From a virus: a DNA stretch of 64,000 bases. The number at the start of each line of letters is the position of its first letter. Position 1 is the first letter of the stretch. This document shows, piece after piece, positions 416-62,689 of the stretch. The stretch covers positions 133,027 to 197,026 of the IMG/VR virus record IMGVR_UViG_3300012000_000001; one strand, written 5' to 3'. The position numbers and the translations under genes were made by a program. Under the pieces are notes generated by a model. The model saw only the letters and a program-made list of their open reading frames with translations. It was not told the origin of the DNA and ran no database searches.

Positions 416-506
416 AGTTGATACTTATTTCTTAGGTAAGAACAGACAGATATACTATACTATACACCCACAATATAGTAAGGAAAACTTGGCCAATAAA
501 CAAGAG

Positions 507-1236: not shown

Positions 1237-1816
1237 AAGATCTAATAATATCCAGTGCTCGTTTAATGTTTTGTCGAATAGCTTCTCTAGACACTCCAAA
1301 CTTTTTACCAATATAAGACAACGTATGATTTTCTAGATAATACATTTTAATTTGTATTTTTTGTTTTTCGGACAAGATACTATTATTCAGCAATTGATCT
1401 ATGTTTGTACTCAAGCACTCTGATTCTTCCTTAGCAATCAGCACATCTACTGGGTCTGCTGCCTTATTATCGGGTATAGAGGAATAAAAAGAAGAGTCAG
1501 CACCATCTTCGCTGAAGTTTAAGCTAATATTTGTATCAATATGCTTTTTATATTTATTAGTTACATAGGTTTTAATAGCCCATATAGCACATTGATTACG
1601 ATAAGAATATAGAGTTTTCTTTTGTCCGCTTTTACCAGACCTATTAGGATCAAAGCGCCAATCTGCATACATGATAGCGGTAGCAACATCTGATACCGCA
1701 TCTGTATTTTTTAACATTTCTGCCGACAGACCATTATAAAATCTTGGTCCAAATTTCGCAATCGTTTTTTTAGCTAAATTTATATACGAGTCCAAACTGT
1801 CATATGTTCTTTGCAT
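1217..1816 (-). CDS. Sigma-70-family RNA polymerase sigma factor
   Basis: A 199-aa sigma factor lacking region 1. Residues about 35-85 look like region 2: helices around DVATAIMYADWRFDPNR, then TLYSYRNQCAIWAIKTYV, where region 2.3/2.4 aromatic residues normally melt and read the -10 box. Residues about 148-195 are a clear region 4 helix-turn-helix (LSEKQKIQIKMYYLENHTL, then IGKKFGVSREAIRQNIKRAL). The compact size resembles T4 gp55 and ECF-like phage sigmas, which redirect host polymerase to late genes. It would fit the lack of TTGACA-type promoters in the left third of the window and the TATAAATA boxes at 2478 and 20881. Which promoter it reads cannot be told from sequence alone. Confidence 0.85.
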   Translation of the reverse strand: MQRTYDSLDSYINLAKKTIAKFGPRFYNGLSAEMLKNTDAVSDVATAIMYADWRFDPNRSGKSGQKKTLYSYRNQCAIWAIKTYVTNKYKKHIDTNISLNFSEDGADSSFYSSIPDNKAADPVDVLIAKEESECLSTNIDQLLNNSILSEKQKIQIKMYYLENHTLSYIGKKFGVSREAIRQNIKRALDIIRSYDKCTA

Positions 1817-1850
1817 TATGTGTCCTTTTTAGAATCCTAAAACTTGAAAA

Positions 1851-2456
1851 TTACTTAGTTAACTTTTTCCACTGATCAGAATCTGGACGGTCCTTATCTC
1901 CAGGTTTTGCTGGTCGATATTTCTTGCCCATGCGTTCTTTCTTTTTACGAATATTTTCCCATAATCCAGGTCGCTCCGCAGACTTAGTATCGGCAGCGTC
2001 TGAGACAAACATGACAAAATCGTGAATAGTACGCATGTAATCCTCAGTAATGGCGATTTTACCCTGTAACCAGCTCTCTGTCAAGTTCTCTGATACCGAT
2101 GGGTTTTCCAATGCTGCTAAAATCTCTTGAGCATGAGTCATGATGGCTCTGATAGAGCCGACGCTCATCTCATAAAAGTCTTTCTTATACTCCATCATTT
2201 CTTGCTCAATGGTTTCGACTTCCATGTCTTCTACTTCGAGAAAATCTCCGTCTTCTGCTTTAGTTTTTCGGAGTTCTTTGAGCTTTCTCTTAATCATTTC
2301 TAGTTCTAATTCATCTTCTAAATCTTCTTTGCGCTGTTCAGTAGAAGAATCCTCTGTTTCCATATCGTGTTCATATTCTCCACAGTTACCTCCACAGCCC
2401 ATGCTTGCTTTAATGCTTTCATTAAGTGAATTTAAAAGATCATGAAATCTGCTCAT
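1851..2456 (-). CDS. Acidic coiled-coil protein with basic C-terminus
   Basis: 201 aa, unrecognised. After a short N-terminus with a CGGNCG cysteine pair, residues 30-95 are highly charged and probably coiled coil (EDLEDELELEMIKRKLKELRK). A helical segment with ESWLQGKIAITEDYMRTIHDFV follows, then a basic tail (RKKKERMGKKYRPAKPGDKD). The charge pattern recalls phage head or scaffold-type proteins, but that is only an impression. A TATAAATA box sits 22-29 bases upstream of the ATG, overlapping the stop of the ferritin-like gene. Confidence 0.7.
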   Translation of the reverse strand: MSRFHDLLNSLNESIKASMGCGGNCGEYEHDMETEDSSTEQRKEDLEDELELEMIKRKLKELRKTKAEDGDFLEVEDMEVETIEQEMMEYKKDFYEMSVGSIRAIMTHAQEILAALENPSVSENLTESWLQGKIAITEDYMRTIHDFVMFVSDAADTKSAERPGLWENIRKKKERMGKKYRPAKPGDKDRPDSDQWKKLTK

Positions 2457-2477
2457 TGGTAAAACTCCTTATTCTTT

Positions 2478-2485
2478 ATTTATAC
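2478..2485 (-). promoter_or_regulatory. Possible T4-type late promoter box (TATAAATA)
   Basis: Minus-strand TATAAATA, the T4 late promoter consensus, placed so that transcription would start just before the gene beginning at 2456. There is no recognisable -35 box, as in T4 late promoters. In DNA this AT-rich the 8-mer is expected by chance several times, so position is the only support. Confidence 0.3.
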
Positions 2486-3043
2486 TAAAATGCTTAAAAA
2501 GTTTTGTAGACTCATTTGTTCTGCTTGTTTCAGATATGCTTGCATCTCTATGATGCCTTTCTCAGACCCCTGTAGCAAAGGTATCGTTATATTAGCCGTA
2601 AGTTCATCTCCAGCATTTCTAGCAGACGTTATGAGTGCTCTTTCGTTTACAGCAGCTTTAACCACCGAAGCTAATATTGCATTTAATATACCTAACATAT
2701 CATGTCTGGGCCACACTACTTGAGGAGCATTGTAGACCACTGTAGTGTCAAAAAACTCTAGCCTATTTAAAACTATTCTGGCATGGTCATGCTCTTCTTC
2801 TGCATCTTTCTTGATAATATCTGCTATTTTTTTATAGCCCCACCTATCAAGATGCTCACCTATTGCAGTAAGCATTTGTGTTTGTTCCCAGTGAATAACA
2901 AGAGCTTCTTTCAGTAATTCAATAACTGAATCTTGAGCCATATTCTTAAAGGTTTCATCTGCTACATATTCAGCAGCTTTTGTTTTTTCATGATTCATGT
3001 TCTGTTGTTCCTTAATTAATTCTTCTAAACTTTTTAAAGACAT
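2480..3043 (-). CDS. Bacterioferritin/ferritin-like protein
   Basis: A 187-aa, mostly helical protein. Residues 38-100 follow the bacterioferritin pattern closely: VIELLKEALVIHWEQTQML supplies the first iron-ligand glutamate, GEHLDRWGYKKIADIIKKD follows, then the EEEHDHARIVLNRL helix carries the ExxH metal-ligand motif. In the second half VNERALI could give the next glutamate, but the usual EExxH of helix 4 reads SEKGIIE, so the last histidine is absent. The di-iron site may therefore be incomplete. Expected roles are iron storage, iron delivery or peroxide protection in the host cytoplasm. Ferritin-like genes are uncommon in phages. Confidence 0.7.
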   Translation of the reverse strand: MSLKSLEELIKEQQNMNHEKTKAAEYVADETFKNMAQDSVIELLKEALVIHWEQTQMLTAIGEHLDRWGYKKIADIIKKDAEEEHDHARIVLNRLEFFDTTVVYNAPQVVWPRHDMLGILNAILASVVKAAVNERALITSARNAGDELTANITIPLLQGSEKGIIEMQAYLKQAEQMSLQNFLSILV

Positions 3044-3059
3044 CGTATAATTACTCCTA

Positions 3060-3596
3060 TCACCATGCTCTGCAAGACCAATATCTTGCTTTCCACTTTG
3101 GTCCCGGATTATCGCAGTTGTGTCTGGCTCTAAAACTTTTTCGTCGTTCTGGGATATTCTTCTTAATTTTCATGTTTGGATCACCAAAATTAACTTTTAC
3201 AACATTACCCTTTTCGTTTTTAACATATACGCTAAATTTTTTAGGCCCACCCGGAGTTCTAAAGGGTTTATTTAAAGTTACTTTACGACCTTGATATTCG
3301 GATGATATTGCATATAGATCGAATTCCTCTGTCAGCTCGGCAATATCTACATAATCATTATCATTTGGTATTACTAAATTTGATTTTGTTAATTCTTCGC
3401 CGTCTTCATCTTGGGTCGCATCAGAGTAATTTAAAATTTCACAGACCTGCTCTATAAGGGATGACTTTGTTTGACCAAGACAGATAGCCACTCTTTGTCC
3501 TGAGTCTGGATATTCTTTTTGCATTGTTTCATTACTCATGCAACGAGCAACAAAATCTTTAGATTTTTCATCTGAATTTGGCTTAGGAATTGGCAT
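3060..3596 (-). CDS. Conserved phage protein with Cys/Trp-rich C-terminus
   Basis: 178 aa. The N-terminus (MPIPKPNSDEKSKDFVARCM, then KEYPDSGQRVAICLGQ) matches a short segment found at the start of many phage prohead protease or portal-linked proteins. The C-terminal 75 residues (LNKPFRTPGGPKKFSVYV, VNFGDPNMKIKKNIPERRK, FRARHNCDNPGPKWKARYW) form a domain I associate with uncharacterised phage proteins. The conserved Arg, His, Cys and Trp residues suggest a nuclease-like or metal-binding fold, but no function is established. It follows the glycosyltransferase gene with only 2 bases between. Confidence 0.75.
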   Translation of the reverse strand: MPIPKPNSDEKSKDFVARCMSNETMQKEYPDSGQRVAICLGQTKSSLIEQVCEILNYSDATQDEDGEELTKSNLVIPNDNDYVDIAELTEEFDLYAISSEYQGRKVTLNKPFRTPGGPKKFSVYVKNEKGNVVKVNFGDPNMKIKKNIPERRKSFRARHNCDNPGPKWKARYWSCRAW

Positions 3597-3598
3597 AA

Positions 3599-4666
3599 TT
3601 AATTACCGTTAATATGATTTAAAATGGTTTGTGCTGTATTAGTCCAGGAAAGTTGTCTAGCTGTATTTACACCAGCATTATTATTAACTATGTTATTATT
3701 GACCATATATCGCATGTGGTCTATAAACTGGTCTTTTTCTGAAGCTCCAATTTTAGCCCAATTACCTTGGCCAACAAAAGCCTTACCATCATTAGCCTTT
3801 TCAGTATTTAGGATATCTACTAAATATGAGTTGTCCGTATTACAAAATTCAGTATGGGCAGAGTAATTAGTCGCGATAACCGGCTTGTTCATAGCCATAC
3901 ACTCTAATAGCTCCATATTCCAACCCTCTGCTCTAGAAGGAAAAATTCCACAATTAGCTTGAGAAATTAATTTTGCAATATCTGCGTGATTATTAAAACC
4001 TGAAAATATTTTTATATTATCGTGTTTATACATATTTTTCCATTGCTGTATTTCTGTCGGTGAAGAATAGGAATTTGTTGTTTCTGAAGCTAAAATCCAT
4101 AATTCTACATTATTATTATTTGGAAAAGCATTCGTAAATAATTCTAATAAAATATCATGACCTTTACGAACTTCCCATTTTCCTATGTTGATAAACACAT
4201 ATTTATCTGATGATGGTGAAACATTGTTATATTTGACCGGATCGAATAAAGACAAGTCCACCCCTAGCGGAGCCACAAATGTAGGAGTATTAACGTGATT
4301 GGATATTATATTTGCTGCCCATTTACTGGTAGCGAAAATTCCATTGGGGACTCTAAGACTATTGATTTCTATATCATTAAAAGTGTCTAATTCAAAAAAA
4401 GGAAAAGCAAAATATTTTCCACGACCAACGTGTTCTAATAAATCAAATTGGTGCCAAATTTTAAGAAAGGGCGCATTGATATCACATAAATATCTTTGCT
4501 TTAATATTTGTATTACATAGTCATGATCTGATTGAGACTCGACTGAAGGTTGTCCTATAGGAAAATAAGATATTGTATTTCCCGATGCGTTTAAAGCCTT
4601 AATTATATTAAATGAAGCAATACCGTAGCCGGTACTGTTTATGGGCGCTGCTAAGTTAATATTCAT
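3599..4666 (-). CDS. Glycosyltransferase, GT4 family (GT-B fold)
   Basis: 355 aa. The donor-binding half carries the GT4 signature: GIFPSRAEGWNMELLECMA at about residues 234-252, where the EGWN glutamate and the later E contact the nucleotide sugar, followed by NKPVIATNYSAHTEF. The central segment PLGVDLSLFDP, then YVFINIGKWEVRKGHDILLEL, is the usual start of the C-terminal Rossmann domain. It should transfer a sugar from an NDP-sugar to a glycan. It begins the sugar island and overlaps the GMP reductase gene start by one base, so the two are probably co-transcribed. Confidence 0.9.
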   Translation of the reverse strand: MNINLAAPINSTGYGIASFNIIKALNASGNTISYFPIGQPSVESQSDHDYVIQILKQRYLCDINAPFLKIWHQFDLLEHVGRGKYFAFPFFELDTFNDIEINSLRVPNGIFATSKWAANIISNHVNTPTFVAPLGVDLSLFDPVKYNNVSPSSDKYVFINIGKWEVRKGHDILLELFTNAFPNNNNVELWILASETTNSYSSPTEIQQWKNMYKHDNIKIFSGFNNHADIAKLISQANCGIFPSRAEGWNMELLECMAMNKPVIATNYSAHTEFCNTDNSYLVDILNTEKANDGKAFVGQGNWAKIGASEKDQFIDHMRYMVNNNIVNNNAGVNTARQLSWTNTAQTILNHINGN

Positions 4667-5766
4667 TAAACACCTAAAATTGGATTGTTGTTATTATGTA
4701 TTTTATTGACTTTACAGAATTGGCTGCATTTAGCCATGTATTTGATATGAGAGGCTCCTACATAGCAACAACATGAGCGGATTCCTCCCAATAACTCTTG
4801 CGTAACTTCACCGATTGTTCCTTTGTAATTAACTGTTATTTTTGTTCCTTCGGATGCTCTGTAGTCTTTTGTTCCATCTTCAAATGTGTCTTGTGAATGA
4901 TGCGTGCTCATCCCATAATACGTAAATCTGCCCTTGGTTTTTTTATCAGTTCCAACTATTGTTGAATAATCTCCGCCTAATTCCCACTCTCCTTCGCACG
5001 GCTCGCTACCAGCAAAATATCCTCCGAGCATCACAAAGTCACTACCAGCACATAAAGCCTTACATACATCTCCAACAGTTCTATGTCCTCCATCAGAACA
5101 TATTAATCCAAGCTTTTTAGCTCCGTTTTGAAGACCGTGGGCTACATAGGCATTTTCTAAACAACAGGACAATTGAGGCACTCCGCAGCCTGTCAAGAAC
5201 CTTGTAGTACAAGCTGACCCTCCTCCTATTCCGGTTTTTACAATATCAACACCACCATATATCAATAATTCCTGAGTAGATGAGGTATTCGTAACATTAC
5301 CAGCTATGATAATAGACTCAGAGAATTGATCCCTAACTTTTTTGCAATATTTTACAAACACATCCATGTGTCCATTAGGAACATCTATGCAAATATTAGG
5401 TTGTTTTCCAAGTTTGTCCTTGAGTTCTAGCAGGTGATTGAGGTCGCTTTTCTTGTATCCAATAGAGACAAAAGTATAGTCAAGATTATTAGGATGGTCG
5501 GTAAAATACTGCAACAAACTATCAACCGAATGATACTTGTGTAAACAGGCTATCATTTTTAGTTTTGCCAGTTCTTGAGCTAATCCAAATGAGCAGAAAC
5601 TCATATTCGCACACATAATGGGTATTCCCGTCCATTGTCTGGGAGAATGATAAAAATTAAATGTGCGTTCCAAATGAATTTCTGAACGACTAGTCAGTGT
5701 TGATCTTTGAGGTACTATTAAAACATCATCAAAATCAAGCTTAAGTTCATCAATAATTTTTTGCAT
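4666..5766 (-). CDS. guaC: GMP reductase (IMPDH/GMPR family)
   Basis: 366 aa TIM-barrel enzyme converting GMP to IMP with NADPH. The catalytic loop GIGGGSACTTRFLTGCGVPQ contains the catalytic cysteine. ICSDGGHRTVGDVCKALCAG and FVMLGGYFAGSEPCEGE match the phosphate-binding region. The flap DYRASEGTKITVNYKGTIGE is typical of GMP reductase rather than IMP dehydrogenase, and no CBS domains are present. It may help the phage steer purine pools, together with the phosphoribosyltransferase and deaminase further right, or feed GDP-sugar supply for the neighbouring glycosyltransferases. Confidence 0.92.
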   Translation of the reverse strand: MQKIIDELKLDFDDVLIVPQRSTLTSRSEIHLERTFNFYHSPRQWTGIPIMCANMSFCSFGLAQELAKLKMIACLHKYHSVDSLLQYFTDHPNNLDYTFVSIGYKKSDLNHLLELKDKLGKQPNICIDVPNGHMDVFVKYCKKVRDQFSESIIIAGNVTNTSSTQELLIYGGVDIVKTGIGGGSACTTRFLTGCGVPQLSCCLENAYVAHGLQNGAKKLGLICSDGGHRTVGDVCKALCAGSDFVMLGGYFAGSEPCEGEWELGGDYSTIVGTDKKTKGRFTYYGMSTHHSQDTFEDGTKDYRASEGTKITVNYKGTIGEVTQELLGGIRSCCCYVGASHIKYMAKCSQFCKVNKIHNNNNPILGV

Positions 5767-5768
5767 AG

Positions 5769-5972
5769 TTATATTTTCTTTAAAAACTCGTCTGTATTAT
5801 AACACTTCCATGTTTGATGGCTATCAAATCCACATTCGCTAACACAAATTTTGGGTCCGGTGATCATACCCCGGCCTTTAAAATGATAAAGAGCGGATAA
5901 GATTGCAGATATTGGGTCATTACAATCTATAATATATTTTATCTGACCAGATTTAACATAGTATTTGGGCAT
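5769..5972 (-). CDS. Small conserved phage protein, 67 aa
   Basis: Unrecognised small protein with a beta-alpha-beta look: KYYVKSGQIKYIIDC, DPISAILSALYHF, then a loop with two cysteines (KICVSECGF) and a Trp. It sits one base after the following gene's stop and two bases before the GMP reductase start, so it belongs to the same transcript. I see no catalytic motif. Confidence 0.7.
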   Translation of the reverse strand: MPKYYVKSGQIKYIIDCNDPISAILSALYHFKGRGMITGPKICVSECGFDSHQTWKCYNTDEFLKKI

Positions 5973-5973
5973 A

Positions 5974-6504
5974 TTAAACCGAAAAAAAATACCATCGTTT
6001 GTATGTGTCTATATTTTCGGAAGTATTAATATGAGACAGATAGTCCTTTATATCACCCCATGAAGAAAAAATGGTTTGATGAGGAATGGTGCCGAACAAC
6101 CAGTCTGGGGCATTGATTTTGCCTTGCTCCATATGAATGATTATTGGTTTTTTTTGTCGATTAGCCCAAAAAATTTCTTCATATGTGCCGCAAGGATGAA
6201 TATCTAGATTTAGATTAACTATTAAAAAATCACTAATGTCTACGAGTCTTAAATCCACCCTACGAATAACTTTCATCATTTCTGATAATTCGTCATATCG
6301 TTCTTTTTGCTTTAGTTTAGTTTTAACAACATGAGAATCTCTATCTTCCATCCCTGTGTTAGTGGGTTTTGTTATAGGATTGAAAACTACAACACCCATT
6401 TCTTCCAAAAACGGCGTAATATTATCTCTCCAAGTCGCACCCCTGTCAGCAACCCTATCCATCGCACCGGCCAAATAAACTCTTTGATTTTGGAGTCTGT
6501 TCAT
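5974..6504 (-). CDS. Nucleoside 2-deoxyribosyltransferase-like protein
   Basis: About 176 aa from the ATG at 6504 (MNRLQNQRVYLAGAMDRV). The opening YLAGAM, the middle DFLIVNLNLDIHPCGTYEEIFWA with its CGTYEE (the active-site Glu region) and the following KKPIIIH segment match the nucleoside deoxyribosyltransferase/DNPP fold, which cleaves or exchanges the base of 2'-deoxynucleosides. The open frame extends to a TTG at 6624, but that part would encode a hydrophobic segment that overlaps a separate small frame (6518-6661), so I prefer the internal ATG. A role in nucleotide salvage or modified-base supply is inferred. Confidence 0.7.
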   Translation of the reverse strand: MNRLQNQRVYLAGAMDRVADRGATWRDNITPFLEEMGVVVFNPITKPTNTGMEDRDSHVVKTKLKQKERYDELSEMMKVIRRVDLRLVDISDFLIVNLNLDIHPCGTYEEIFWANRQKKPIIIHMEQGKINAPDWLFGTIPHQTIFSSWGDIKDYLSHINTSENIDTYKRWYFFSV

Positions 6505-6517
6505 AAGTTTAGTAAAA

Positions 6518-6661
6518 TTAATTATCGGTAAATAAAAAAGTAAATAAATTTTTTGATGAATATAGCCTACTACAACTAGACCTATCACTAAGCCTATATT
6601 GACCATCGACCATACCAAATACAATTGCCAAAGCCAAGAACATTAATATAATTTCAACCAT
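6518..6661 (-). CDS. Putative small membrane protein, 47 aa
   Basis: ATG at 6659-6661 overlaps the stop of the upstream glycosyltransferase gene. The product begins MVEIILMFLALAIVFGMVDG, one likely membrane helix or signal anchor, followed by a polar tail. The frame ends 13 bases before the preferred start of the deoxyribosyltransferase gene, which makes a tidy gene order. It competes with the alternative that the downstream enzyme has an N-terminal extension in another frame. Confidence 0.4.
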   Translation of the reverse strand: MVEIILMFLALAIVFGMVDGQYRLSDRSSCSRLYSSKNLFTFLFTDN

Positions 6662-7388
6662 TTTTAAAATATCCAATATATTTTTGTCTCATACTATTTA
6701 CTTCATCAATCATTTGCTGTAGATGCTCTGGATTTGTTGACCTACCAGTAGGATTGTGATAGTAAAGGCCAACCGGGTGGTTGACCATCTTTATTCTAGC
6801 ACCTCCGACCGCACAACGCAACCACATATCTCCATCGGAAGCCGTCTTATAGTTTTCATCGAACCAACCAAATCTATCATGCAAATTCTTTTTCCATAGA
6901 GGCATACAGTGAGGACTATTGTTTAGGAATAGATTATTAAATGAGTGTGGCAAACAAGGATAGATCGAATCATATGTATTGTCTTCATATTTTTCATTAG
7001 CAATATTAGATATATAAGTGATTCCATATGCAATATCCAGTAAATCATCTCTTTCAAAAGCTTTAAGTAAAATTTCTGTACTGTGTATGTTTTTTCGATC
7101 ATCTATATTCCAGTTGCCAATTATAGGAGCTGTACATAATTGAATAGCTTTATTCCAACCAGCATACAGTCCAGGATCTGAATCTAGTCTATAATATTTG
7201 ATATTCTCATATCTTTTTACTAATGGTTCGATATATCTGTGTTCTGATTCTGGAGAATTACAATCTAAAAAAATAAATTCAATATTTTCAAAAATAGACT
7301 GTCTGAGAACATCGTATAGGTAGCCGTCAATAAATTTTTCTCCTTTATAGAGAGAACAAAATAATGAACACTTATAATTATCGGTCAT
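6654..7388 (-). CDS. Glycosyltransferase family 2 (GT-A fold)
   Basis: 244 aa. The N-terminal CSLFCSLYKGEKFIDGYL and FIFLDCNSPESE match the GT2 nucleotide-binding start. PGLYAGWNKAIQLCTAPIIG, then WNIDDRKN, supplies the DxD-like acidic pair. Later the segment DGDMWLRCAVGGARI is the acceptor-side motif (usual ED position). It overlaps the upstream glycosyltransferase gene by 11 bases. Sugar and acceptor are unknown. Confidence 0.88.
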   Translation of the reverse strand: MTDNYKCSLFCSLYKGEKFIDGYLYDVLRQSIFENIEFIFLDCNSPESEHRYIEPLVKRYENIKYYRLDSDPGLYAGWNKAIQLCTAPIIGNWNIDDRKNIHSTEILLKAFERDDLLDIAYGITYISNIANEKYEDNTYDSIYPCLPHSFNNLFLNNSPHCMPLWKKNLHDRFGWFDENYKTASDGDMWLRCAVGGARIKMVNHPVGLYYHNPTGRSTNPEHLQQMIDEVNSMRQKYIGYFKNG

Positions 7389-8031
7389 GCTTTCTTCCTT
7401 GCCAGTGGGTGCCTATTAAACCACAATGTACAGCATATACATCTGGTAGATAAATTTTTTTGTTTGGTTTATTTTGCCAGTATTTTGATACAAACATCAT
7501 ATCATGCTGTGAAACATCAATATTCTCTGGCAAAGGATATATTTTGTTTTGTAATTCGGGCATTATGATATTCTTATGAAAGAATTGAAAATACCCAAAA
7601 AAACCAATATTTTCTACGGTATTATCCCCATTAGGATAGTCCGTATGGTTATTGTAAATTTTACGCGGACAAGAGACTATGTTGCTTTCGTTAATTAACT
7701 TATCATCTAACAAAGACTTTATACGATTAATAGGATCTGTAAAAATAATATCTGCATCTGTAAATAAAATCCAATCATCATCTTGAAATCTTTCTGGATG
7801 GGTTAATAAAAATTCATTGGTTGCTGCGGCTCTATTAAGAGGGTTGTTATTTTTAAAAAATGTATCTGTTTGGTATAAAAAGATATTATTGTTTAAACAA
7901 AATTTTTCTGTATCTTTATCTGAGGTTGATGATAAAATACTTAAATTATGAATAATATCTTTATTGTAGGAGTAGACAAATTCTAGGTAATCTACAAAAT
8001 TAATACAAGTAATTATTGTATGATATTTCAT
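7378..8031 (-). CDS. Putative glycosyltransferase (GT-A type)
   Basis: 217 aa. DDDWILFTDADIIFTDPINRIK has the D-x-D metal-binding motif (DAD) of GT-A enzymes, preceded by RAAATNEFLLTHPERF. Later INMGH-type motifs of GT8 are not obvious, but CPRKIY and the HDMMFVSKYW, VYAVHCGLIGTHW end look like a substrate pocket with a final catalytic His/Asp region. It shares one base with the methyltransferase stop/start junction. A specific GT family could not be fixed by eye. Confidence 0.7.
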   Translation of the reverse strand: MKYHTIITCINFVDYLEFVYSYNKDIIHNLSILSSTSDKDTEKFCLNNNIFLYQTDTFFKNNNPLNRAAATNEFLLTHPERFQDDDWILFTDADIIFTDPINRIKSLLDDKLINESNIVSCPRKIYNNHTDYPNGDNTVENIGFFGYFQFFHKNIIMPELQNKIYPLPENIDVSQHDMMFVSKYWQNKPNKKIYLPDVYAVHCGLIGTHWQGRKHDR

Positions 8032-8606
8032 TATTTCACCTCATAGATCCAACAATATTCTTGAGTTTTAATATTGTGAACACCTAGTATTTCGTTAACA
8101 GCAGTATTAACTCCAGGCCATCCGTGATTATAGTCATGTCCAGCCAATATTCCACCCTTCTTAACTTTAGGTAGCCATGCTAATATATCTTCATGAACAC
8201 AGCTATATTCGTGACAAGCATCTATAAAAACTATATCAACAGATTCGTTCTCAAATAATTTTGATGCTTCTATTGAGTTAGATTTTATATTACGAATATA
8301 TTGGCTTACGCTTGATGTATTATTAAGATAAGTAGAGTATAGCTCACTAATATTAGTGTTAAAATGCGGGGATGATTTATCAATGTTTTCAGCTGATCCT
8401 TCCCAAGTATCTATGGCATAGAATTCTATGGTTTTATTAGAATTAGCTATCTCTACTGCCATATATGCTGTACTTTGTCCTTTATAACTGCCTATTTCTA
8501 CTATTGATCCGCCATCATTTAGTCTATGAACAAAAGATGTGTATAGCATAGGAAACGTGAACCAGTTCTCTGGAAATTTATTGCGATCATAATAAAAATG
8601 ATTTAT
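8031..8606 (-). CDS. Class I SAM methyltransferase, probably starting at an ATA codon
   Basis: SAM-binding motif I is GGSIVEIGSYKGQSTAYMA, motif post-I includes FYAIDTWEGS, and VDIVFIDACHEYSCVHEDI holds acidic residues of the active site; GILAGHDYNHGWPG follows. This is the Methyltransf_24 type that often modifies sugars or is fused to glycosyltransferases. The first ATG is at 8549, but the frame stays open upstream and encodes NHFYYDRNKFPENWFTFP, which I recognise as the normal N-terminus of this family. The only plausible initiator there is ATA at 8604-8606, placed 8 bases after a good AAGGAG and overlapping the upstream TAA. Confidence 0.75.
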   Translation of the reverse strand: MNHFYYDRNKFPENWFTFPMLYTSFVHRLNDGGSIVEIGSYKGQSTAYMAVEIANSNKTIEFYAIDTWEGSAENIDKSSPHFNTNISELYSTYLNNTSSVSQYIRNIKSNSIEASKLFENESVDIVFIDACHEYSCVHEDILAWLPKVKKGGILAGHDYNHGWPGVNTAVNEILGVHNIKTQEYCWIYEVK

Positions 8607-9376
8607 ATTATGGTCTCCTTAAATACGTTTGCGTCTAATTGATTAGAGTCAAAATTATGCCATAAAGAGTTATACAGTTCTGGCGTGAAGTGTATATTTT
8701 TAATATCACTCCAATGCTCTATAGTATAAATAGGTAATTGGTGTTTCTCTTTGAGATATCTAATATTATATGTGTTTTCTGCAATCGGTATTGCTTTTAA
8801 ATATAAGGATTCCCAAATTCTATGGGAGTCTATTCCGTTCCCGAGTGGACATACATTAAAATAAGTCTTAGCTAGTTTTGTTGTATATTCATGAAAAGAT
8901 ATATTGTTTTCAAAATATTGTGAATCTATATTTTGTAAACACAAACTTCGCTGTTTTAGATTTGTGTGTACATTAAAGTTAGCATATAATATAAACTCTT
9001 TATTATAATTAATATTGAAGGTGTTTTGTAATATATCTACATCACCGTGTGGCCATTCGATATTGGCTATACCTATTGGTATGGGAACTAATTTAGAATG
9101 AGCATAGTCAACGTTTTGAGCATACCACGTTTTTAGATAAGAATACTCTAAATAGTGTTTATGATTATGGTTGATACCATGATCACTATTGTGAGTAATT
9201 AAATTAAATTCATAATTAGGTAATTGATTACTATTAAAAAATAAATGAATATAGTCTGTTTTAACAAAAAATGTTGGACAATTATTACTTTTTACAGATT
9301 GGTTTTCTCGAAAGCCATGTTCATCTAAGACATAGTCACAGATCGATTTGAAAAAATGCCCAGTAATAAAATTCAT
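8603..9376 (-). CDS. Exostosin-like glycosyltransferase
   Basis: 257 aa. The segment YFNVCPLGNGIDSHRIWESL, then YLKAIPIAEN, near residues 165-197 matches the signature of exostosin-type (GT47-like) glycosyltransferases, where the ExLxxGxIPI stretch lines the donor site. The N-terminal half is less conserved (HLFFNSNQLPNYEFNLITHN, then KLVPIPIGIANIEWPHGD). The stop overlaps the unusual start of the methyltransferase. Likely part of the surface-glycan pathway. Confidence 0.72.
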   Translation of the reverse strand: MNFITGHFFKSICDYVLDEHGFRENQSVKSNNCPTFFVKTDYIHLFFNSNQLPNYEFNLITHNSDHGINHNHKHYLEYSYLKTWYAQNVDYAHSKLVPIPIGIANIEWPHGDVDILQNTFNINYNKEFILYANFNVHTNLKQRSLCLQNIDSQYFENNISFHEYTTKLAKTYFNVCPLGNGIDSHRIWESLYLKAIPIAENTYNIRYLKEKHQLPIYTIEHWSDIKNIHFTPELYNSLWHNFDSNQLDANVFKETII

Positions 9377-19662: not shown

Positions 19663-20414
19663 TTTGATTCCTTGATAGTAGAAATGGTGTTTGTAATCCA
19701 TTCAACATGATCACTAATTCTGGTATGGCCACTAAATGTTCCATAGGCCGATTTTATCATCCCCTTGTCATGTATAACACAAGAGTTTATGCCTGCTAGT
19801 TTATTTCCGATAAATAAGCCGCCCCCGCTATCACCACTAGCAATACAATATTCTAATTCTGTTCTGTTTGTTCTAGAAGGGGAACACACCAACAATCCCC
19901 TATCTATAGAGTCTATAGTATTAGAACCGGCTCTTAGTTTATCGTCCAGTTTATTAACGCCCACCAAAAAATTTCCAGTAGCGCCATATCCAGCTATGGA
20001 ACATATTTTTCCTACCTCGTTTTTATTGGTATATAATTCAGGATACCATTCCAAACCTATATCGTCTTCTAAAATGCATATAGCAATATCATAATATCCA
20101 AATTGGTCCATTTTATAATTAGGATGGACTATGATTTTTGATACATTAATTGTTTTGCTATTGATAGTCGCTCTACAGGTTCCCACATCTTGCACAATAT
20201 GCGCGGCTGTTATTATAACATTAGATTGGTGTGCTATTCCAGAACCAAAATAAGGCTTGGTATCAGGAGTGGTACCATGCACTTTAGCAATATATACAAA
20301 TTTTGATCCGTACTCTATATGCTTAGAGTCTGGGGTATTGGGGTCTATCGTGCCCGAAAAACCTACGACACAAGCCAACGACAACGCTATAAATATAACT
20401 ACTTTTTGTATCAT
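19659..20414 (-). CDS. Secreted trypsin-like serine protease
   Basis: 251 aa. Signal peptide MIQKVVIFIALSLACVVGFSG, then an S1-type domain with His in NVIITAAHIVQD, Asp in YDIAICILEDDI and Ser in CIASGDSGGGLFI. Cysteines suggest disulfides and export. It overlaps the HNH gene upstream by 92 bases but the signal peptide makes the start convincing. Co-transcription with the subtilisin gene makes a two-protease unit. Confidence 0.88.
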   Translation of the reverse strand: MIQKVVIFIALSLACVVGFSGTIDPNTPDSKHIEYGSKFVYIAKVHGTTPDTKPYFGSGIAHQSNVIITAAHIVQDVGTCRATINSKTINVSKIIVHPNYKMDQFGYYDIAICILEDDIGLEWYPELYTNKNEVGKICSIAGYGATGNFLVGVNKLDDKLRAGSNTIDSIDRGLLVCSPSRTNRTELEYCIASGDSGGGLFIGNKLAGINSCVIHDKGMIKSAYGTFSGHTRISDHVEWITNTISTIKESK

Positions 20415-20718
20415 TTTGAACTTTTAAGTTATATGGTCTATTTCGTACCTTAGTATAATACACCCTTGCATCATCAACAACTGTTGTATTCCAACTAGTA
20501 TAGTCCATCAAGTGACCAAATACTAAATGACACTTGGTACACAAAGTAATTAAATTTGCGGGATCTAATTCTCTTTCTGGATTTATATGAAACGGCTCTA
20601 TATGATGAACCTCTAGTTTTTGTGACGTTCCGCACGCAGCGCACAGTGGTTGTTGTTCAAGATGTTTTTTTCTACACGATGACCATTGAGATGATCTATC
20701 AGATAATATTTGCCACAT
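20323..20718 (-). CDS. HNH endonuclease
   Basis: 131 aa. CAACGTSQKLEVHHIEPFH, then LDPANLITLCTKCHLVFGH is a complete HNH (beta-beta-alpha metal) nuclease with two zinc-binding CxxC pairs. The last 30 residues overlap the signal-peptide region of the trypsin gene, suggesting the HNH gene was inserted there or extended. Likely a free-standing homing endonuclease. Confidence 0.82.
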   Translation of the reverse strand: MWQILSDRSSQWSSCRKKHLEQQPLCAACGTSQKLEVHHIEPFHINPERELDPANLITLCTKCHLVFGHLMDYTSWNTTVVDDARVYYTKVRNRPYNLKVQNDTKSSYIYSVVVGLCRRFFGHDRPQYPRL

Positions 20719-35743: not shown

Positions 35744-35944
35744 TTAAGTTAATCCAGCTTCTTCTGAAGCATCATAATATCCAGTATCGTATCCTTGACC
35801 ATGACCAACAGTATAAGCTGCCATGAGCCACTTTATAATCTCGTCAGTTGTGTTTTCTGCAACATCAAGCTTTATATCACCTATAATTCGATCTATTCTT
35901 GGACCGAATTTTTCATCTTGATATAACCATTTGTCGAATGTCAT
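35744..35944 (-). CDS. Hypothetical protein, 66 aa
   Basis: The ATG at 35942-35944 overlaps the HNH stop as ATGA, so I prefer it to the longer frame starting at 35977. The product MTFDKWLYQDEKFG, then TTDEIIKWLMAAYTVGHGQG ends in a Gly/Tyr-rich helix. Unrecognised. Confidence 0.6.
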   Translation of the reverse strand: MTFDKWLYQDEKFGPRIDRIIGDIKLDVAENTTDEIIKWLMAAYTVGHGQGYDTGYYDASEEAGLT

Positions 35945-36411
35945 AAGATTTCTTTTCTGTGAAGTTTCATATGGCAATTAGCACACAATAGTATACATTT
36001 CTTGATTTCTTTTAATATTGTTATCCAAGCTTTATGCCAATTACTACATAAGTTGAATTTTTTTGTATTTGGGTTTTTATGATGAAAAGTTAAAACATCA
36101 TGGTCACAATTTCCACAATTATTGCATTTACCCCCAAGAATATTTATAGCTTTCGCTCTTTGATTGCCTCTTCTTTTAAAGGTTCTACAAGTAGGACAAA
36201 CATTATTTTTTGTCCATTTGAAATCTCTACTACATTCAGTGCAATGTTTTTTACTATTTTTATTTCTTTGTGGAAGATGCAGTCTTTTTGTATTGCGTTT
36301 ACCAAATGGCGAACATCCTAGACAATATATTCTTTTATTTATGTTTCTTTCTATTCCATCAATTACAACACGATTTTTAAATTTTTTTGAACACTTTAAG
36401 CATTTTTTCAT
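35941..36411 (-). CDS. HNH endonuclease with zinc ribbons
   Basis: 156 aa. Two CxxC-type ribbons (KKCLKCSKKF, HCTECSRDF, VCPTCRTF) and a third (KCNNCGNCDHDVLTFHHKNP) lead into the HNH core ending LLCANCHMKLHRKE. It is likely a free-standing homing endonuclease, different from the family at 39857/43799/50142. It is placed between the tRNA-Leu gene and small phage genes. Confidence 0.82.
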   Translation of the reverse strand: MKKCLKCSKKFKNRVVIDGIERNINKRIYCLGCSPFGKRNTKRLHLPQRNKNSKKHCTECSRDFKWTKNNVCPTCRTFKRRGNQRAKAINILGGKCNNCGNCDHDVLTFHHKNPNTKKFNLCSNWHKAWITILKEIKKCILLCANCHMKLHRKEIL

Positions 36412-39681: not shown

Positions 39682-39879
39682 TCACCCTTCCCATTCTGAC
39701 TCATCTTCTACCTCATCAGTACCATAATGAAATTCATTTTTTTTTAAAATATAAGTTCTACCGGAATCACCAAAGATTTCATATAAATAAGTGTCATCAC
39801 CTTGTGTCATCATTTTATTGAGCCAACCTTTTTCTTGTGTTTCCAACACGGTGACTCTATGAAATCTCATTGGACTCAT
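39682..39879 (-). CDS. Hypothetical protein, 65 aa
   Basis: Beta-rich product (RFHRVTVLETQEKGWLNKMM, then TYLYEIFGDSGRTYILKKNE) with an acidic tail. Its start lies inside the end of the HNH gene (23-base overlap), so the HNH insertion may have changed its original 5' end. Confidence 0.55.
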   Translation of the reverse strand: MSPMRFHRVTVLETQEKGWLNKMMTQGDDTYLYEIFGDSGRTYILKKNEFHYGTDEVEDESEWEG

Positions 39880-40501
39880 GATTATATCTGCCAGATTTTT
39901 TCAAATTATCTATTGCCCATAGCGGTTGTAAATTGGTATAGTGAAAGCAAATTTTTTGTTGTTTTATATCAGTTAAATCAAAACTACAGCATGGCTTGAT
40001 ATGATCTATATGCCACTGCCCATAATTGTCCCAATTCATACCGTCTGAAAACTGTCTCTCTAAGTATAGTTTCAAGTCCTCCCAAGAGCAACCCAATAAA
40101 TTATACGAAATGCTATTTTTCGATCCTCTAGACAAAGCCATTCTGATACGATTACTAATGACAGTTCTTAATCTGAAATTAATATTTCCTTTACGTTTTT
40201 CTCTTCGTTTTTTATTAATTTTGTCTCTATATTTTTCTCGATATTTTTTAGCATTTATAGCAACTTTGTCTAGATTGTCTTGTCCCCATTGTTTTCTGTT
40301 TTCGTTTAATCGTTCTTTATATTTAGATCTATATTCTTGTTGTTGTTTTTGAATTTTCCTTTTATTCTTTTGTCTCCTTATAGCATTATATTCTTTTTGA
40401 CAAGATTTGCAATAAGGAGATTTTCCATCTTTTGATGCTTTCTGATTATGAAAATTAATAGGATCTTGTTTTTTGTTACATTTTATACATTGTTTTTTCA
40501 T
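39857..40501 (-). CDS. HNH homing endonuclease (family A, copy 1)
   Basis: 214 aa from the ATG at 40499-40501. N-terminal zinc ribbon (CIKCNKKQDPINFHN, then YCKSCQKEY), a very basic helical middle (RREKRKG), and an HNH core with WHIDHIKPCCSFDL and ICFHYTNLQPLWAIDN. It is closely related to the genes at 43799 and 50142, which share NWDNYGQW and HIKPC. The endonuclease gene is preceded by a hairpin that can mask its ribosome-binding site. Confidence 0.88.
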   Translation of the reverse strand: MKKQCIKCNKKQDPINFHNQKASKDGKSPYCKSCQKEYNAIRRQKNKRKIQKQQQEYRSKYKERLNENRKQWGQDNLDKVAINAKKYREKYRDKINKKRREKRKGNINFRLRTVISNRIRMALSRGSKNSISYNLLGCSWEDLKLYLERQFSDGMNWDNYGQWHIDHIKPCCSFDLTDIKQQKICFHYTNLQPLWAIDNLKKSGRYNHESNEIS

Positions 40502-40502
40502 A

Positions 40503-40531
40503 GTGTATACCTTTTCGCTTATTGTATACAC
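40503..40531 (-). promoter_or_regulatory. Hairpin over the HNH ribosome-binding site
   Basis: Perfect 8-bp inverted repeat: GTGTATAC (40503-40510) and GTATACAC (40524-40531), loop 13. The AAAAGG ribosome-binding site sits at the loop/stem border and the ATG follows directly. Such hairpins keep T4 homing-endonuclease genes silent on read-through transcripts. Confidence 0.6.
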
Positions 40532-43798: not shown

Positions 43799-44413
43799 AT
43801 GGCTAAAAAGTATTGCTGGTATTGTGATAAAAATCTAGACACTTCTTTATACCATAGGTCTAAAAGTAGTTCAGACGGTTTTCAAGGTATGTGTAAAGAC
43901 TGTCATAAATCATATAGGAAAAATTGGTTGTCTAAAAATAAAATAGAGTATACAAAAAAATGTAAAGAGTGGGCAACAAAAAATAAACAGAAAAAATATT
44001 TAACTCAAAAAGAATGGAGAACCAATAATAGAGAATATTTTCGTGAGCATCAAAGAAAATACAAGGCATTGAAGCGAAAAAATGATCCTATTTTTAGAAT
44101 AACAGGAAATTTAAGAGTTAGGTTAAGAAAGACAGTTAAAGGTATAAATAAAAGTAAAAAAACAATGGAATTATTAGGATGTAGCATAGAGGAATTTAAA
44201 GAGCATATTAAGAAAAAATTTAAAAAGGGAATGACTTGGAATAATTATGGTAAATGGGAACTGGATCATATTAAACCTTGTTATAGTTTTAATTTAATAG
44301 ATTTAGAACAACAGAAAATCTGTTTTCATTATACTAATATTCAACCCTTGTGGAAAAAAGAACATAGAGAAAAGACTACGAATGATACTAGAAAATATCT
44401 TTACGATTTCTAG
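43799..44413 (+). CDS. HNH homing endonuclease (family A, copy 2)
   Basis: 204 aa on the plus strand against the local gene direction. YCWYCDKNLDTSLYH and CKDCHKSYRKNW form the zinc ribbon, followed by basic helices and the HNH core WELDHIKPCYSFNL, ICFHYTNIQPLWKK. AAGGA precedes the ATG. Its end overlaps the convergent endonuclease VII gene by 26 bases. Paralogue of 39857 and 50142. Confidence 0.87.
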   Translation: MAKKYCWYCDKNLDTSLYHRSKSSSDGFQGMCKDCHKSYRKNWLSKNKIEYTKKCKEWATKNKQKKYLTQKEWRTNNREYFREHQRKYKALKRKNDPIFRITGNLRVRLRKTVKGINKSKKTMELLGCSIEEFKEHIKKKFKKGMTWNNYGKWELDHIKPCYSFNLIDLEQQKICFHYTNIQPLWKKEHREKTTNDTRKYLYDF

Positions 44414-44741
44414 ACATAATTAAATAGTTAACCGCTTTAATTATAGAGCTTAAATCATCTCCTAATTTACCTAAGCCGGTATTACATCTGGTACAAAGCC
44501 ATCCTCTAAAAGAATCATCACTATGGTCATGGTCTAATGCCCATTGGAAAGGAATTTTACCGCAACATTCACAAACTTCTGGTTTAGGAGGAGCCTTTTT
44601 ATGTAATTTGCTTCTAATTTTAGAATGTTTTTTAACACATTTCCTACATCTACTATCTAGATTGTCTTTGTACATACTGTGCTTGGGAAAACTTGCTAGG
44701 TTTTTACGTTTCCCACAATATGAACAGACTTTACGGCCCAT
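44388..44741 (-). CDS. Recombination endonuclease VII-like protein
   Basis: 117 aa. VCSYCGKRKNLASFP and CRKCVKKHSK give the zinc site. WALDHDHSDDSFRGWLCTRC, then NTGLGKLGDD is the His-Me nuclease core of T4 gp49, which resolves Holliday junctions and branched DNA before packaging. It is shorter than T4 gp49 (157 aa), lacking the C-terminal dimer part. The start codon shares one base with the DUF1501 stop. Confidence 0.88.
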   Translation of the reverse strand: MGRKVCSYCGKRKNLASFPKHSMYKDNLDSRCRKCVKKHSKIRSKLHKKAPPKPEVCECCGKIPFQWALDHDHSDDSFRGWLCTRCNTGLGKLGDDLSSIIKAVNYLIMSRNRKDIF

Positions 44742-49827: not shown

Positions 49828-50057
49828 GAGTTACCTCCATCATTTTCTGCAAAAATACTTTCAATGTTTGTAGCCAACACTGTCCTATCATTACCTATGT
49901 GATTTGAAATTACCCAAGTATCACAACTCAATTCTTCTCCTGTTGAAGCATCGTGAATCATTACTGGACTATTCCAGTCAAATTTACCAAAATTATCAAG
50001 GCCATTAGCTTGGGCATGAAGATAATTATAAAGATCAAGCCATGTCATTTTATTCAT
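49824..50057 (-). CDS. Conserved phage protein, 77 aa
   Basis: MTWLDLYNYLHAQANGLDNF, then WNSPVMIHDASTGEELSCDT matches a small family common in phages (MTW..L...L, W..PV..HD..TGE). Unknown role. First gene after a promoter. Confidence 0.68.
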   Translation of the reverse strand: MNKMTWLDLYNYLHAQANGLDNFGKFDWNSPVMIHDASTGEELSCDTWVISNHIGNDRTVLATNIESIFAENDGGNS

Positions 50058-50105
50058 CTAGCCTCCTTAAAATGTCGGTTTTGTGGGTATAGTCGGTGTA
50101 TGGTA

Positions 50106-50133
50106 AGTATACAGGATAGTTTGTTAAAGTCAA
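50106..50133 (-). promoter_or_regulatory. Sigma-70 promoter
   Basis: TTGACT (50128-50133), 16-base spacer, TATACT (50106-50111). The divergent HNH gene begins 9 bases beyond the -35 box, as if inserted immediately upstream of this promoter. Confidence 0.8.
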
Positions 50134-50141
50134 GGTGCTGC

Positions 50142-50804
50142 ATGAAAATATGCGTTAAATGTAAGATTAAAAAAGAACTCAATGAGTTTAGTAACAATAA
50201 GACCAAAAAAGATGGCAAGTGTGTTTATTGTCGTAGTTGCTATGCTTCGGTAAATAAAGAATGGAGACAAAATAATCCAGATAAAGATCGAAAAATTCAT
50301 AAAAAATGGGGAAAAAATAATATACATAAAATAAGAAAATCTAGATTAAAATCATATTATAAACACAAAGAAAAAATGAATAAATACGCTAGAGAATATA
50401 AACAAAAAAATAAAGATAAATTAAGAATTAAAGCTAGAGAATATTCAAAAAATAAATATGTCATAGATATAAATTATCGTTTAAGAGTTATACTTCGTGG
50501 TAGATTATGGAAAGCTATTTCAAGGGAAAGTAAAAAATCCAGTGCTTTAGATTTACTTGGTTGTAGTATCGACGAACTTAAAATGTATTTAGAGCAAAAA
50601 TTTATTGATGGTATGAATTGGGAAAATTACGGACAATGGCATATTGATCATATCAAACCATGTTGTAGTTTCGATTTAACTGATTTTGAACAGCAGAAAG
50701 AATGTTTTCATTATAGTAATCTACAGCCATTATGGGCCAAAGATAATATTACTAAAAATGGAAAATTTATCTTGCCCGACGATTTACCCGATCACACCTT
50801 CTAA
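50142..50804 (+). CDS. HNH homing endonuclease (family A, copy 3)
   Basis: 220 aa. ICVKCKIKKELNEFSNN and YCRSCYASVNKEW zinc ribbon, basic helices, then WHIDHIKPCCSFDL and CFHYSNLQPLWAKDN. ATG 50142 is chosen because upstream codons of the open frame run through the opposite gene and promoter. Plus-strand orientation against neighbours and close similarity to copies 1 and 2 mark it as mobile. Confidence 0.88.
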   Translation: MKICVKCKIKKELNEFSNNKTKKDGKCVYCRSCYASVNKEWRQNNPDKDRKIHKKWGKNNIHKIRKSRLKSYYKHKEKMNKYAREYKQKNKDKLRIKAREYSKNKYVIDINYRLRVILRGRLWKAISRESKKSSALDLLGCSIDELKMYLEQKFIDGMNWENYGQWHIDHIKPCCSFDLTDFEQQKECFHYSNLQPLWAKDNITKNGKFILPDDLPDHTF

Positions 50805-61174: not shown

Positions 61175-61754
61175 TTACGATATTTTCTGATTGAATAGTT
61201 TTTGTAGTTCTGTAAAACTCCACGGTTGTCCGAATGGTTTATTATAGTTGATAGTGTTATCCACACCAACATCTAAAGTTAATCTATTTGACGATCTATC
61301 TTCATGATCTAGTCTGGAATGTACATGACCATATAAATGATAGCTACCTTTATGGCTTGACGGCCAAGAACGATGAGGATAATGGCTTAAAAAGATTTTT
61401 TTGTTACAATATGTGATTTCTTTAACGTCATATAATGAGGTAAAGCCATTCATATCAGTAGTAATTTCATTTATGTAATAATCTGTACGTTTGTCATGAT
61501 TACCAAAAATTAAATGCACATTTCTACAATTTATATGAACCCTATAATCTAGTGGTTTTTTGCCCTTGAAACAAAAATCTCCAAGTATGTATAGAGTATC
61601 ATCATGCTTTACAACTGTGTTTATGTTGTCAAATATGGTTTTATTCATATGATGAGCATCAGTAAACGGACGATTACAATGTTTAATTATATTATAATGA
61701 CCTTAGTTAGCCCGAAGGCTAACCAAAGTGAGTATCAGATATAAAATATATCAT
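61175..61754 (-). CDS. Metallophosphoesterase read through a 22-nt ribosomal bypass
   Basis: Translation starts at the ATG at 61752-61754 and gives MIYFISDTHFG, ending at the GGT codon 61722-61724. TAG follows, then a hairpin, then a second GGT (61700-61702) after which the family sequence continues in another frame: HYNIIKHCNRPFTDAHHMNK, and onward to YILGDFCFKG, IFGNHDKR, LSHYPH and YHLYGHVHS. The joined product is 185 aa, the normal size of this calcineurin-like phosphoesterase family, with metal ligands D7, H9, the GD, GNH and GHVH motifs. Starting at the first later ATG (61648) would lose DTH. Bypassing is inferred from structure, not shown. Confidence 0.85.
61700..61724 (-). promoter_or_regulatory. 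Translational bypass (byp) element
   Basis: Take-off codon GGT (61722-61724), stop TAG right after it, a 7-bp plus G-U stem capped by TTCG (GTTAGCC, TTCG, GGCTAAC, 61706-61723), then TAA and landing codon GGT (61700-61702). The skipped stretch is 22 nt including the landing codon, so the frame changes. Identical take-off and landing codons, the immediate stop and the UUCG hairpin that includes the take-off codon are the hallmarks of T4 gene 60. From memory the core TAGCCTTCGGGCTA equals that of T4; this should be checked. Confidence 0.85.
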
Positions 61755-61758
61755 AATA

Positions 61759-62610
61759 TCACTTATTATTTTTCCTTTCGTATCTTTGTCCATCTTTATA
61801 TGCTGAAATTAGATTTCTGCAAAGTTCTTGCTCTGCCCAGTTTCCTGTATAAGATTCAATCTTATCAAACAACTCGTCTATTGTCAAGTGGTCAGCATCA
61901 ACGTATCTTGTTTTCTTTTTGCTTATATTCTGTCTAGCAGTTAATATTTGACAGTTTGATGGGTGTCTAAGTATTTCTGGAAAAATACCAAGATCAAATC
62001 CAGTTTTTCTGGATAGCATATGATCTCGTACTACTCCAGAAATATTATTTACATTATGAAACACACCATGCTTTGCAAGCAATTTGATTTGTTTTTTATC
62101 TGTTATTAAATCAAACATTCTTTCTATCCAATCAGCTTCTTTATAATAGATTTCAAAATCACTTTTATCTTGCAAAGGAATCCAGTATCCTGAAGATTCC
62201 ATTTTTTGTCTGTGTTTAATTCTGTATTCTTCTGTCCATTTTGCTCTAGATTTTTCTCCAATAATTTTCTTTGATTGTGCTGAATGAGGTCTAGAATATG
62301 ATTCTGAGCTTCTGTGTCCATGACAAGCTTTTATTCTTTCTGGACTGAATTTTTTCCCCCTATTTGCTGTTCCAGCTTTGTATCTAAATTCATCTGTGAT
62401 TTTTGATTTTATTAATTTGGATTGTTTATTTTTTCGTTGTTTGGACCATCTTTTATCAAAGTTAGGATTATTTACTCCAATCATTGAAGATTTCATATTT
62501 ATTGCATGACATTTTTTGCTACAACAAGTCGATTTGCCCTTGGTCTGTGAAACATATCTAGTAAAAATTTTATGACATACTGGACATTCAAATGTGAGAT
62601 TTTTAGACAT
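61759..62610 (-). CDS. HNH homing endonuclease of the bypass cassette
   Basis: 283 aa from the ATG at 62608-62610 with AAAGGAG upstream. N-terminal zinc finger (FECPVCHKIFTRYVSQ, CCSKKCHAINM), a repeated NUMOD-like basic middle (KFSPERIKACHG, RPHSAQSKKIIGEKSRAKWT), and a C-terminal HNH-type region with HGVFHNVNNISGVVRDHMLS, RKTGFDLGIFPEILRHPSNC and QILTARQNISKKKTR. This matches free-standing HNH homing endonucleases with DNA-reading repeats. It sits exactly between the two copies of the metallophosphoesterase 5' end, 4 bases before the second copy. Confidence 0.85.
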   Translation of the reverse strand: MSKNLTFECPVCHKIFTRYVSQTKGKSTCCSKKCHAINMKSSMIGVNNPNFDKRWSKQRKNKQSKLIKSKITDEFRYKAGTANRGKKFSPERIKACHGHRSSESYSRPHSAQSKKIIGEKSRAKWTEEYRIKHRQKMESSGYWIPLQDKSDFEIYYKEADWIERMFDLITDKKQIKLLAKHGVFHNVNNISGVVRDHMLSRKTGFDLGIFPEILRHPSNCQILTARQNISKKKTRYVDADHLTIDELFDKIESYTGNWAEQELCRNLISAYKDGQRYERKNNK

Positions 62611-62650: not shown

Positions 62651-62689
62651 TTAATGCCCAAAATGAGTATCGCTAGTAAAGTATATCAT
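62651..62689 (-). pseudogene. 5' remnant of the metallophosphoesterase gene
   Basis: ATG 62687-62689 overlaps the upstream stop as ATGA and reads MIYFTSDTHFGH, then TAA. This is the family N-terminus and differs from the downstream copy (MIYFISDTHFG) by scattered, mostly silent changes. The gene was cut here by the HNH cassette. It gives the uninterrupted form of the site (DTHFGH without the hairpin). Confidence 0.85.

Follow-up and report, generated by a model that had tools for sequence, protein, structure and literature searches.

In a 64,000-nt stretch of viral DNA (the window; positions 133,027 to 197,026 of IMGVR_UViG_3300012000_000001), a metallophosphoesterase (MPE) gene is interrupted within its D-x-H-x-G-H motif codons by a 22-nt non-coding gap that opens with a stop codon. 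A programmed bypass resembling that of T4 gene 60 is the best-supported reading of this gap on sequence grounds, and from it we infer that ribosomes hop. Comparison with related contigs and records (designated by L-numbers) places the gap in a larger arrangement: very probably, an HNH cassette has entered the MPE gene and provided a recoded second start, and ribosomes bypass an insert that would serve the cassette as an immunity tag. The anatomy of the locus, an empty site, conservation of the gap, selection on the protein, and repeated parallel solutions are evident from the sequences compared. A preliminary description had recognized the gap and had missed that the bypass belongs to a homing-endonuclease cassette. 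The features of the locus are the following.

62651..62689, minus strand: remnant of the resident MPE 5' end, MIYFTSDTHFGH and then a stop, severed by the cassette; same layout in L006, L109, L111, L112, L113, L120, L122, L124, and L125.
61759..62610, minus strand: homing endonuclease of 283 aa with N-terminal Cys motifs, a NUMOD3-type region, and an HNH-like C-terminal half (GVVRDHMLSRKTGF..FP..LRHPSNC..T..N..K).
61726..61764, minus strand: predicted 5' stem-loop AAGTGATAT.../...ATACTCACTT, with the second start codon inside and a 3' arm that stops one base short of the take-off codon (z -2.2).
61722..61754, minus strand: cassette-borne second MPE 5' end, MIYFISDTHFG, whose last codon is the take-off GGT; identical in the window and L006.
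61754-61752, minus strand: MPE start codon, ATG.
61724-61722, minus strand: take-off codon, GGT.
61705..61724, minus strand: take-off hairpin GGTTAGCC-TTCG-GGCTAACT, enclosing the take-off codon and the stop; 8/8 pairs kept in eight sequences.
61721-61719, minus strand: stop codon TAG, immediately 3' of the take-off codon.
61700..61721, minus strand: 22-nt non-coding gap TAGCCTTCGGGCTAACTAAGGT, which opens with TAG and closes with the landing GGT; kept in eight contigs.
61702-61700, minus strand: landing codon, GGT.
61175..61699, minus strand: MPE body after landing, HYNIIKHCNRPF..., 174 aa (phrog_547, 6e-32).
Predicted peptide of the joined protein at the gap: ISDTHFGHYNIIK.

The MPE codons run ATG ATA TAT TTT ATA TCT GAT ACT CAC TTT GGT and then TAG; reading resumes at CAT 61699 (CAT TAT AAT...), and the frame is open as far as TAA 61177-61175. 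The T4-type order of GGT, TAG, and a second GGT is therefore present in the window. Coordinates and folding bore out the preliminary description on the GGT directly followed by TAG, the UUCG hairpin over both, the second GGT, and the continuation in another frame. Its claim that only a 22-nt skip joins the two sides held for the window, since the +1 frame of the gap meets TAA (61705-61703) just ahead of the landing GGT and a shift of -1 leads into the third frame, which is the wrong one; L006, where the +1 frame is open, is excepted. Reassignment of a stop codon was rejected because TAA, TGA, and TAG each terminate long open reading frames (ORFs) in the window. An intron or known RNA element was also rejected, as an Rfam search of the region gave a chance microRNA match only. 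No second MPE copy was found in the record.

The joined protein, which the preliminary description had assigned to the MPEs, aligns from residue 1-2 with phage MPEs, and PDB 1xm7 aligns MMYFISDTHFYHENII with its start. Matches among phage records rose from 712 with the truncated protein to 1429 with the joined protein. Against Pfam Metallophos_2, the joined and truncated proteins scored 21 versus 24 bits, both under the cut-off of 27, and the match began at profile position 3 versus 19. The calcineurin-like MPE motifs D-x-H...GD...GNH...H...GHxH are united only in the joined protein (phrog_547, PDB 1xm7). Substitution patterns indicate that the MPE body is under purifying selection, including the codons just past the gap: omega was 0.04-0.17 in recoded pairs versus 0.06-0.12 in intact pairs and, where dS was computable, 0.05-0.09 for the first 28 codons past the gap, which lie ahead of an internal ATG at 61648. 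Purifying selection right from the gap argues for translation from the gap onward.

The stem of the take-off hairpin comprises seven Watson-Crick pairs and one G-U pair, and the 197-kb record contains the hairpin only once. Folding of the 111-nt region gave z = -4.5, with 0/200 shuffles equally stable. Across the eight sequences, GC/GU changes affect the two outer pairs, beyond which covariation of the stem yielded nothing informative. The loop is TGCG in L183 and L192 and TTCG in the other 22-nt alleles; UGCG and UUCG both conform to the UNCG rule, which is thus kept. The 5' stem-loop expected of a T4-type bypass is present as a predicted structure, and its 5' arm is retained in L022, L054, L095, and L096, all without an endonuclease. 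Over the 63 nt up to take-off, mean fold z was -2.3 in hop alleles, -0.4 in +1 alleles, and +0.4 in intact genes, and it was lower in 11 hop representatives than in 7 intact genes (rank test, U = 0, p = 3e-5). L122, L124, L130, L136, and L150 form a long stem with a 3' arm that extends to the take-off codon or borders it. The position of the last paired base did not separate hop alleles from controls. Together, retention of the gap in eight contigs, selection on the body, and a 5' stem-loop abutting the take-off codon lend support to the earlier suggestion that ribosomes hop here.

HNH-like and NUMOD motifs identify the window ORF 62610-61759, on sequence criteria, as a free-standing NUMOD3/HNH-type homing endonuclease. 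NUMOD3 was found in 5/6 members of this endonuclease family, the window copy having no Pfam match; the invariant positions are VRDH, R, F, FP, RH, N, N, and K. An AlphaFold model of the endonuclease was too poor (pLDDT 55) and was not used. Because the severed MPE 5' end precedes it, the endonuclease lies inside the MPE gene, just past the D-x-H-x-G-H codons, and the start in use is the second MPE 5' copy, 3' of the endonuclease. L006 has the same upstream ORF, cassette layout, and 22-nt gap as the window, and L007 provides the matching empty site of L006, uninterrupted and sharing its left flank as far as GGACA(C/T). Direct comparison of the window with L006 showed that the remnant starts differ at 8/36 bases while the second starts do not differ at all, a pattern to be expected of a start that moves together with the cassette. 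The 68-nt element shows 2 differences between them; the endonuclease genes are 75% and the bodies 79% identical.

Homologous cassettes were collected by scans with endonuclease alignments and sequence patterns, and a single script served to check every recoded site. Scanning with the window endonuclease alone found none, so that alignments were required. The pattern scans favored TAG and TTTCGG alleles, and the mix of allele types is biased accordingly; other matches to GGNTAGCCTTCGGGCTA in viral contigs were mostly unrelated hairpins and were discarded. No cassette was found in GTDB genome contigs, and cultured phages yielded only distant endonuclease relatives adjoining other genes. Among 12 close MPE relatives, 11 read DTHFGH uninterrupted and L006 has the 22-nt gap; a 13th locus spans the C-terminal half only. 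The gap itself occurs in eight contigs including the window, mostly from different metagenomes and with diverged flanks (L022, L054, L095, L096, and L006 from the pattern scan, L183 and L192 from a second scan). In all, 29 recoded contig alleles carry inserts of 1, 5, 6, 7, 10, 22, or 26 nt, all in the D-x-H-x-G-H codons and each followed by an open MPE body, that of L111 ending with the contig after 33 codons. They are listed as take-off codon, insert, and codon at which reading resumes.

GGT, 22 nt, CAT: window, L006, L022, L054, L095, L096, L183, L192.
GGT, 26 nt, CAT (lands on GGA): L027, a distant MPE.
CAT, TAGATGCTAT (10 nt), TTC: L124.
CAT, TAGCTAT (7 nt), TTT: L122.
CTT, TGACTA (6 nt), CAT: L125, L126, L128.
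TCA, TGATCG (6 nt), CAC: L136.
ACT, TAACT (5 nt), CAT: L130.
TCC, TAGCT (5 nt), CAC: L150.
GGT, TAGGT (5 nt), CAT: L186.
TTT, T (1 nt), GGG: L109.
TTT, C (1 nt), GGN or TCG: L111, L120, L138, L141, L161, L164, L166, L168, L169, L170.

Every insert longer than 1 nt opens with a stop codon immediately 3' of the take-off codon. This includes all six hop cassettes found via the endonuclease alone (L122, L124, L125, L130, L136, and L150), an outcome with a chance probability of ~1e-8. Most hop types combine a take-off codon with a landing codon for the same amino acid (GGT/GGT twice, GGT/GGA, ACT/ACT, CTT/CTA, and TCA/TCG). With sister cassettes carrying other hops at the same motif, the preliminary description was too modest in calling such bypassing rare outside T4. 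It was right that no long nascent-peptide signal can be accommodated, as the gap is preceded by no more than 17-19 open codons in four 22-nt relatives (L095, L096, L183, and L192) and by 12 in L186. The gap is kept without an endonuclease directly upstream in L054, L095, L096, L183, L192, L186, and L161. The type of recoding does not follow the lineage of the endonuclease: with good support, L168 (+1) falls with L125 and L126 (6-nt hop), and the sister of L130 (5-nt hop) is L131 (no shift).

Individual alleles showed further peculiarities. In L124, the ATG at the expected place of the second-copy start is out of frame and another ATG, in frame, is situated farther upstream, leaving the start codon uncertain; the start region, take-off codon, and stop of this copy all fall within a perfect inverted repeat of 16 bp, CTAATGAGTGTCGGAT / ATCCGACACTCATTAG. 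The endonuclease ORF of L122 is broken by a frameshift, and its 7-nt-hop MPE allele is still open. The 6-nt hop site of L125, L126, and L128, just past the endonuclease stop (about 3340-3480), reads CTTTGACTA, the sequence at which the E. coli prfB frameshift takes place; in none of the three would a +1 shift at this site enter the MPE frame.

We propose that a free-standing HNH-type endonuclease inserted into the MPE gene directly after the D-x-H-x-G-H codons, its presumed target, and that the cassette keeps the gene whole by supplying a duplicate of the MPE 5' end. Such a copy would rebuild the target and therefore carries an insertion inside the motif codons, which would break the recreated target as has been proposed for T4 mobA/gene 60 (PMC5009743). 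During translation, the ribosome would pause at the take-off GGT with the stop codon in the A site, hindered there by the UNCG hairpin that holds both codons. Peptidyl (Gly)-tRNA would then release GGT, the 5' hairpin would zip up behind the ribosome and pull the mRNA through a slide of 22 nt, and the tRNA would re-pair at the second GGT. The two hairpins would thereby stand in for the long nascent peptide of T4. We infer the efficiency of bypass, the cleavage site, and the immunity role from this arrangement. It also seems likely to us, with somewhat less assurance, that a widespread family of phage cassettes breaks the frame of its target to mark its own allele, that a +1 shift or hops of 5, 6, 7, 10, 22, or 26 nt restore the protein, that short hairpins drive the hops without a long nascent peptide, and that hopping evolved repeatedly as an immunity tag of selfish elements.

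Several observations weigh against this proposal. In L006, CAA stands where the window has TAA, so that a +1 shift could lead into the body at the cost of 7 additional residues. The start codon lies inside the 5' hairpin in several alleles, where the hairpin might act on initiation, and compared with other windows of the same gene, the upstream fold is extreme in only some alleles. Take-off and landing codons match poorly in L150 (TCC/GCT) and in L122 and L124 (CAT/TAT). Substitutions alone, with no shift, change the motif codons of L113, L131, and L152, and in L154 an endonuclease, itself internally duplicated, lies beside an intact motif.

Several other explanations were weighed. Ordinary frameshifting or stop readthrough would suffice for some alleles: those with 1 nt (TTT C/T GGN) require just a +1 shift, the L006 gap lacks a stop in the +1 frame, and the 6-nt alleles are in frame. 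As a general account it seems scarcely probable, because the +1 frame of the window hits TAA ahead of landing, and the 26-nt insert of L027 sets the body in another frame than the 22-nt inserts do, with the same take-off codon and hairpin. Reading the 6-nt alleles through would add two residues within D-x-H, and TGA terminates other ORFs in L125, L126, and L136. We consider it very unlikely that the cassette abolishes the full-length protein and leaves a shorter product made from the internal ATG 61648 or by re-initiation past the stop. The body is open from that ATG, and a stop followed by a later ATG permits re-initiation in principle; however, such a product would be without the D-x-H ligands, the codons from the gap to the internal ATG are under purifying selection, the start and SDTH codons are kept in frame ahead of the stop in nearly all cassettes, and the record offers no other MPE.

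Removal of the extra bases from DNA or RNA, or errors of assembly, has a practically negligible chance of accounting for a 22-nt gap that recurs with diverged flanks in contigs mostly of different metagenomes; Rfam detects no intron or ribozyme in the region, and inserts of 1-26 nt match no known splicing element. It is also conceivable, but unlikely, that the bypass is real and the inserts are tolerated scars of endonuclease insertion that give no protection from cleavage. The cleavage site of a free-standing homing endonuclease can lie far from the place of its insertion (PMC2988022), and several alleles retain the insert without an endonuclease. Against this, unrelated insert sequences recur in the same few motif codons, and the non-shifting L113, L131, and L152 change those codons too. 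Overall, ribosomal bypass of a protective insert is the reading that we favor.

This family offers a series of natural candidates in which homologous genes carry gaps of 1 to 26 nt at a single site, so that the minimal requirements of hopping, including whether it can do without a long nascent peptide, become testable by comparison. A 2016 review noted that shorter bypasses with matching landing codons have long been presumed elsewhere (PMC5009743). The series also suggests a general rationale for such elements: a homing endonuclease must render its own allele uncuttable, and where the target consists of codons for catalytic residues, an insertion skipped by the ribosome leaves the protein unchanged.

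Other loci were noted alongside. In L144-L147, a relative of the endonuclease immediately precedes a nucleotidyltransferase-like gene (GRFQVHELHDGH) whose frame shows no visible break, and the endonuclease family therefore has other targets. A distant relative in L160 (Campylobacter phage vB_CjeM_WX1) lies between two pieces of a ribonucleotide reductase alpha subunit. The window phage appears rich in homing endonucleases, with further HNH-like ORFs at 20323-20718 (-), 35941-36411 (-), 39857-40531 (-), 43799-44413 (+), 44388-44741 (-), and 49953-50804 (+). A recurrent hairpin, CTCACTTTCTCAATTGGGTAGCCTTCGGGCTACCC, unrelated to the MPE cassettes, stands ahead of various genes in many viral contigs (e.g., L016, L025, and L063) and is probably a terminator or processing element that phages have in common.

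None of the papers searched describes these cassettes. Their features recall several known systems. The programmed +1 frameshifting of prfB is resembled by the 1-nt alleles, which need a +1 shift at TTT; here there is no autoregulation, and the shift repairs an insertion brought by a mobile cassette. Synthetic stop-hops (PMC5009743, section 42) have matched codons flanking a stop, a layout shared by L125 (CTT TGA CTA) and L136 (TCA TGA TCG), whereas the MPE hops are natural, borne by phage cassettes, and accompanied by an upstream hairpin. The bypass elements of Magnusiomyces capitatus mitochondria (PMC5009743) are likewise gene-inactivating inserts skipped by ribosomes; those described here belong to a bacterial phage, occupy one fixed site, and are linked to an endonuclease.

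The closest likeness is to T4 gene 60, the classic case of bypassing in a phage. As described in PMC5009743 and PMC11194080, it has a Gly take-off codon, UAG at once, and a matched landing codon. There too, an HNH homing endonuclease splits the host gene upstream, and that account proposes that the bypass sequence protects against cleavage (PMC5009743, citing its reference 158). A 5' stem-loop is likewise present in T4, where its zipping behind the ribosome is proposed as the force that drives sliding (PMC5009743). T4 retains its bypass with a defective mobA, in the way that several MPE alleles retain the gap without an adjoining endonuclease. The systems differ in that T4 has a 50-nt gap in a topoisomerase gene, compared with 22 nt (1-26 in sisters) in an MPE gene here, and in that many alternative hops occur here at one site. 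The T4 nascent-peptide signal KKYK (PMC11194080) lies about 30 aa ahead of take-off; with take-off at codon 11 and so few open codons ahead of the gap in relatives, it has no counterpart here. The endonuclease is not MobA-like and belongs to another HNH family; a search with the endonuclease-family profile gave no match in T4 1-9000 or in the T4-like L044, whose gene 60 is preceded by a different HNH ORF. The hairpin has 14 nt, TAGCCTTCGGGCTA, that are identical in the T4 record. Direct descent from the T4 cassette was nevertheless rejected, as the endonucleases differ and most of the 14 nt are dictated by the stop codon, the bases that pair with it, and the UNCG loop, making convergence the simpler reading. 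The best reading of these sequences is that the MPE bypass would work like that of T4 gene 60 while having a separate origin, outside that family.
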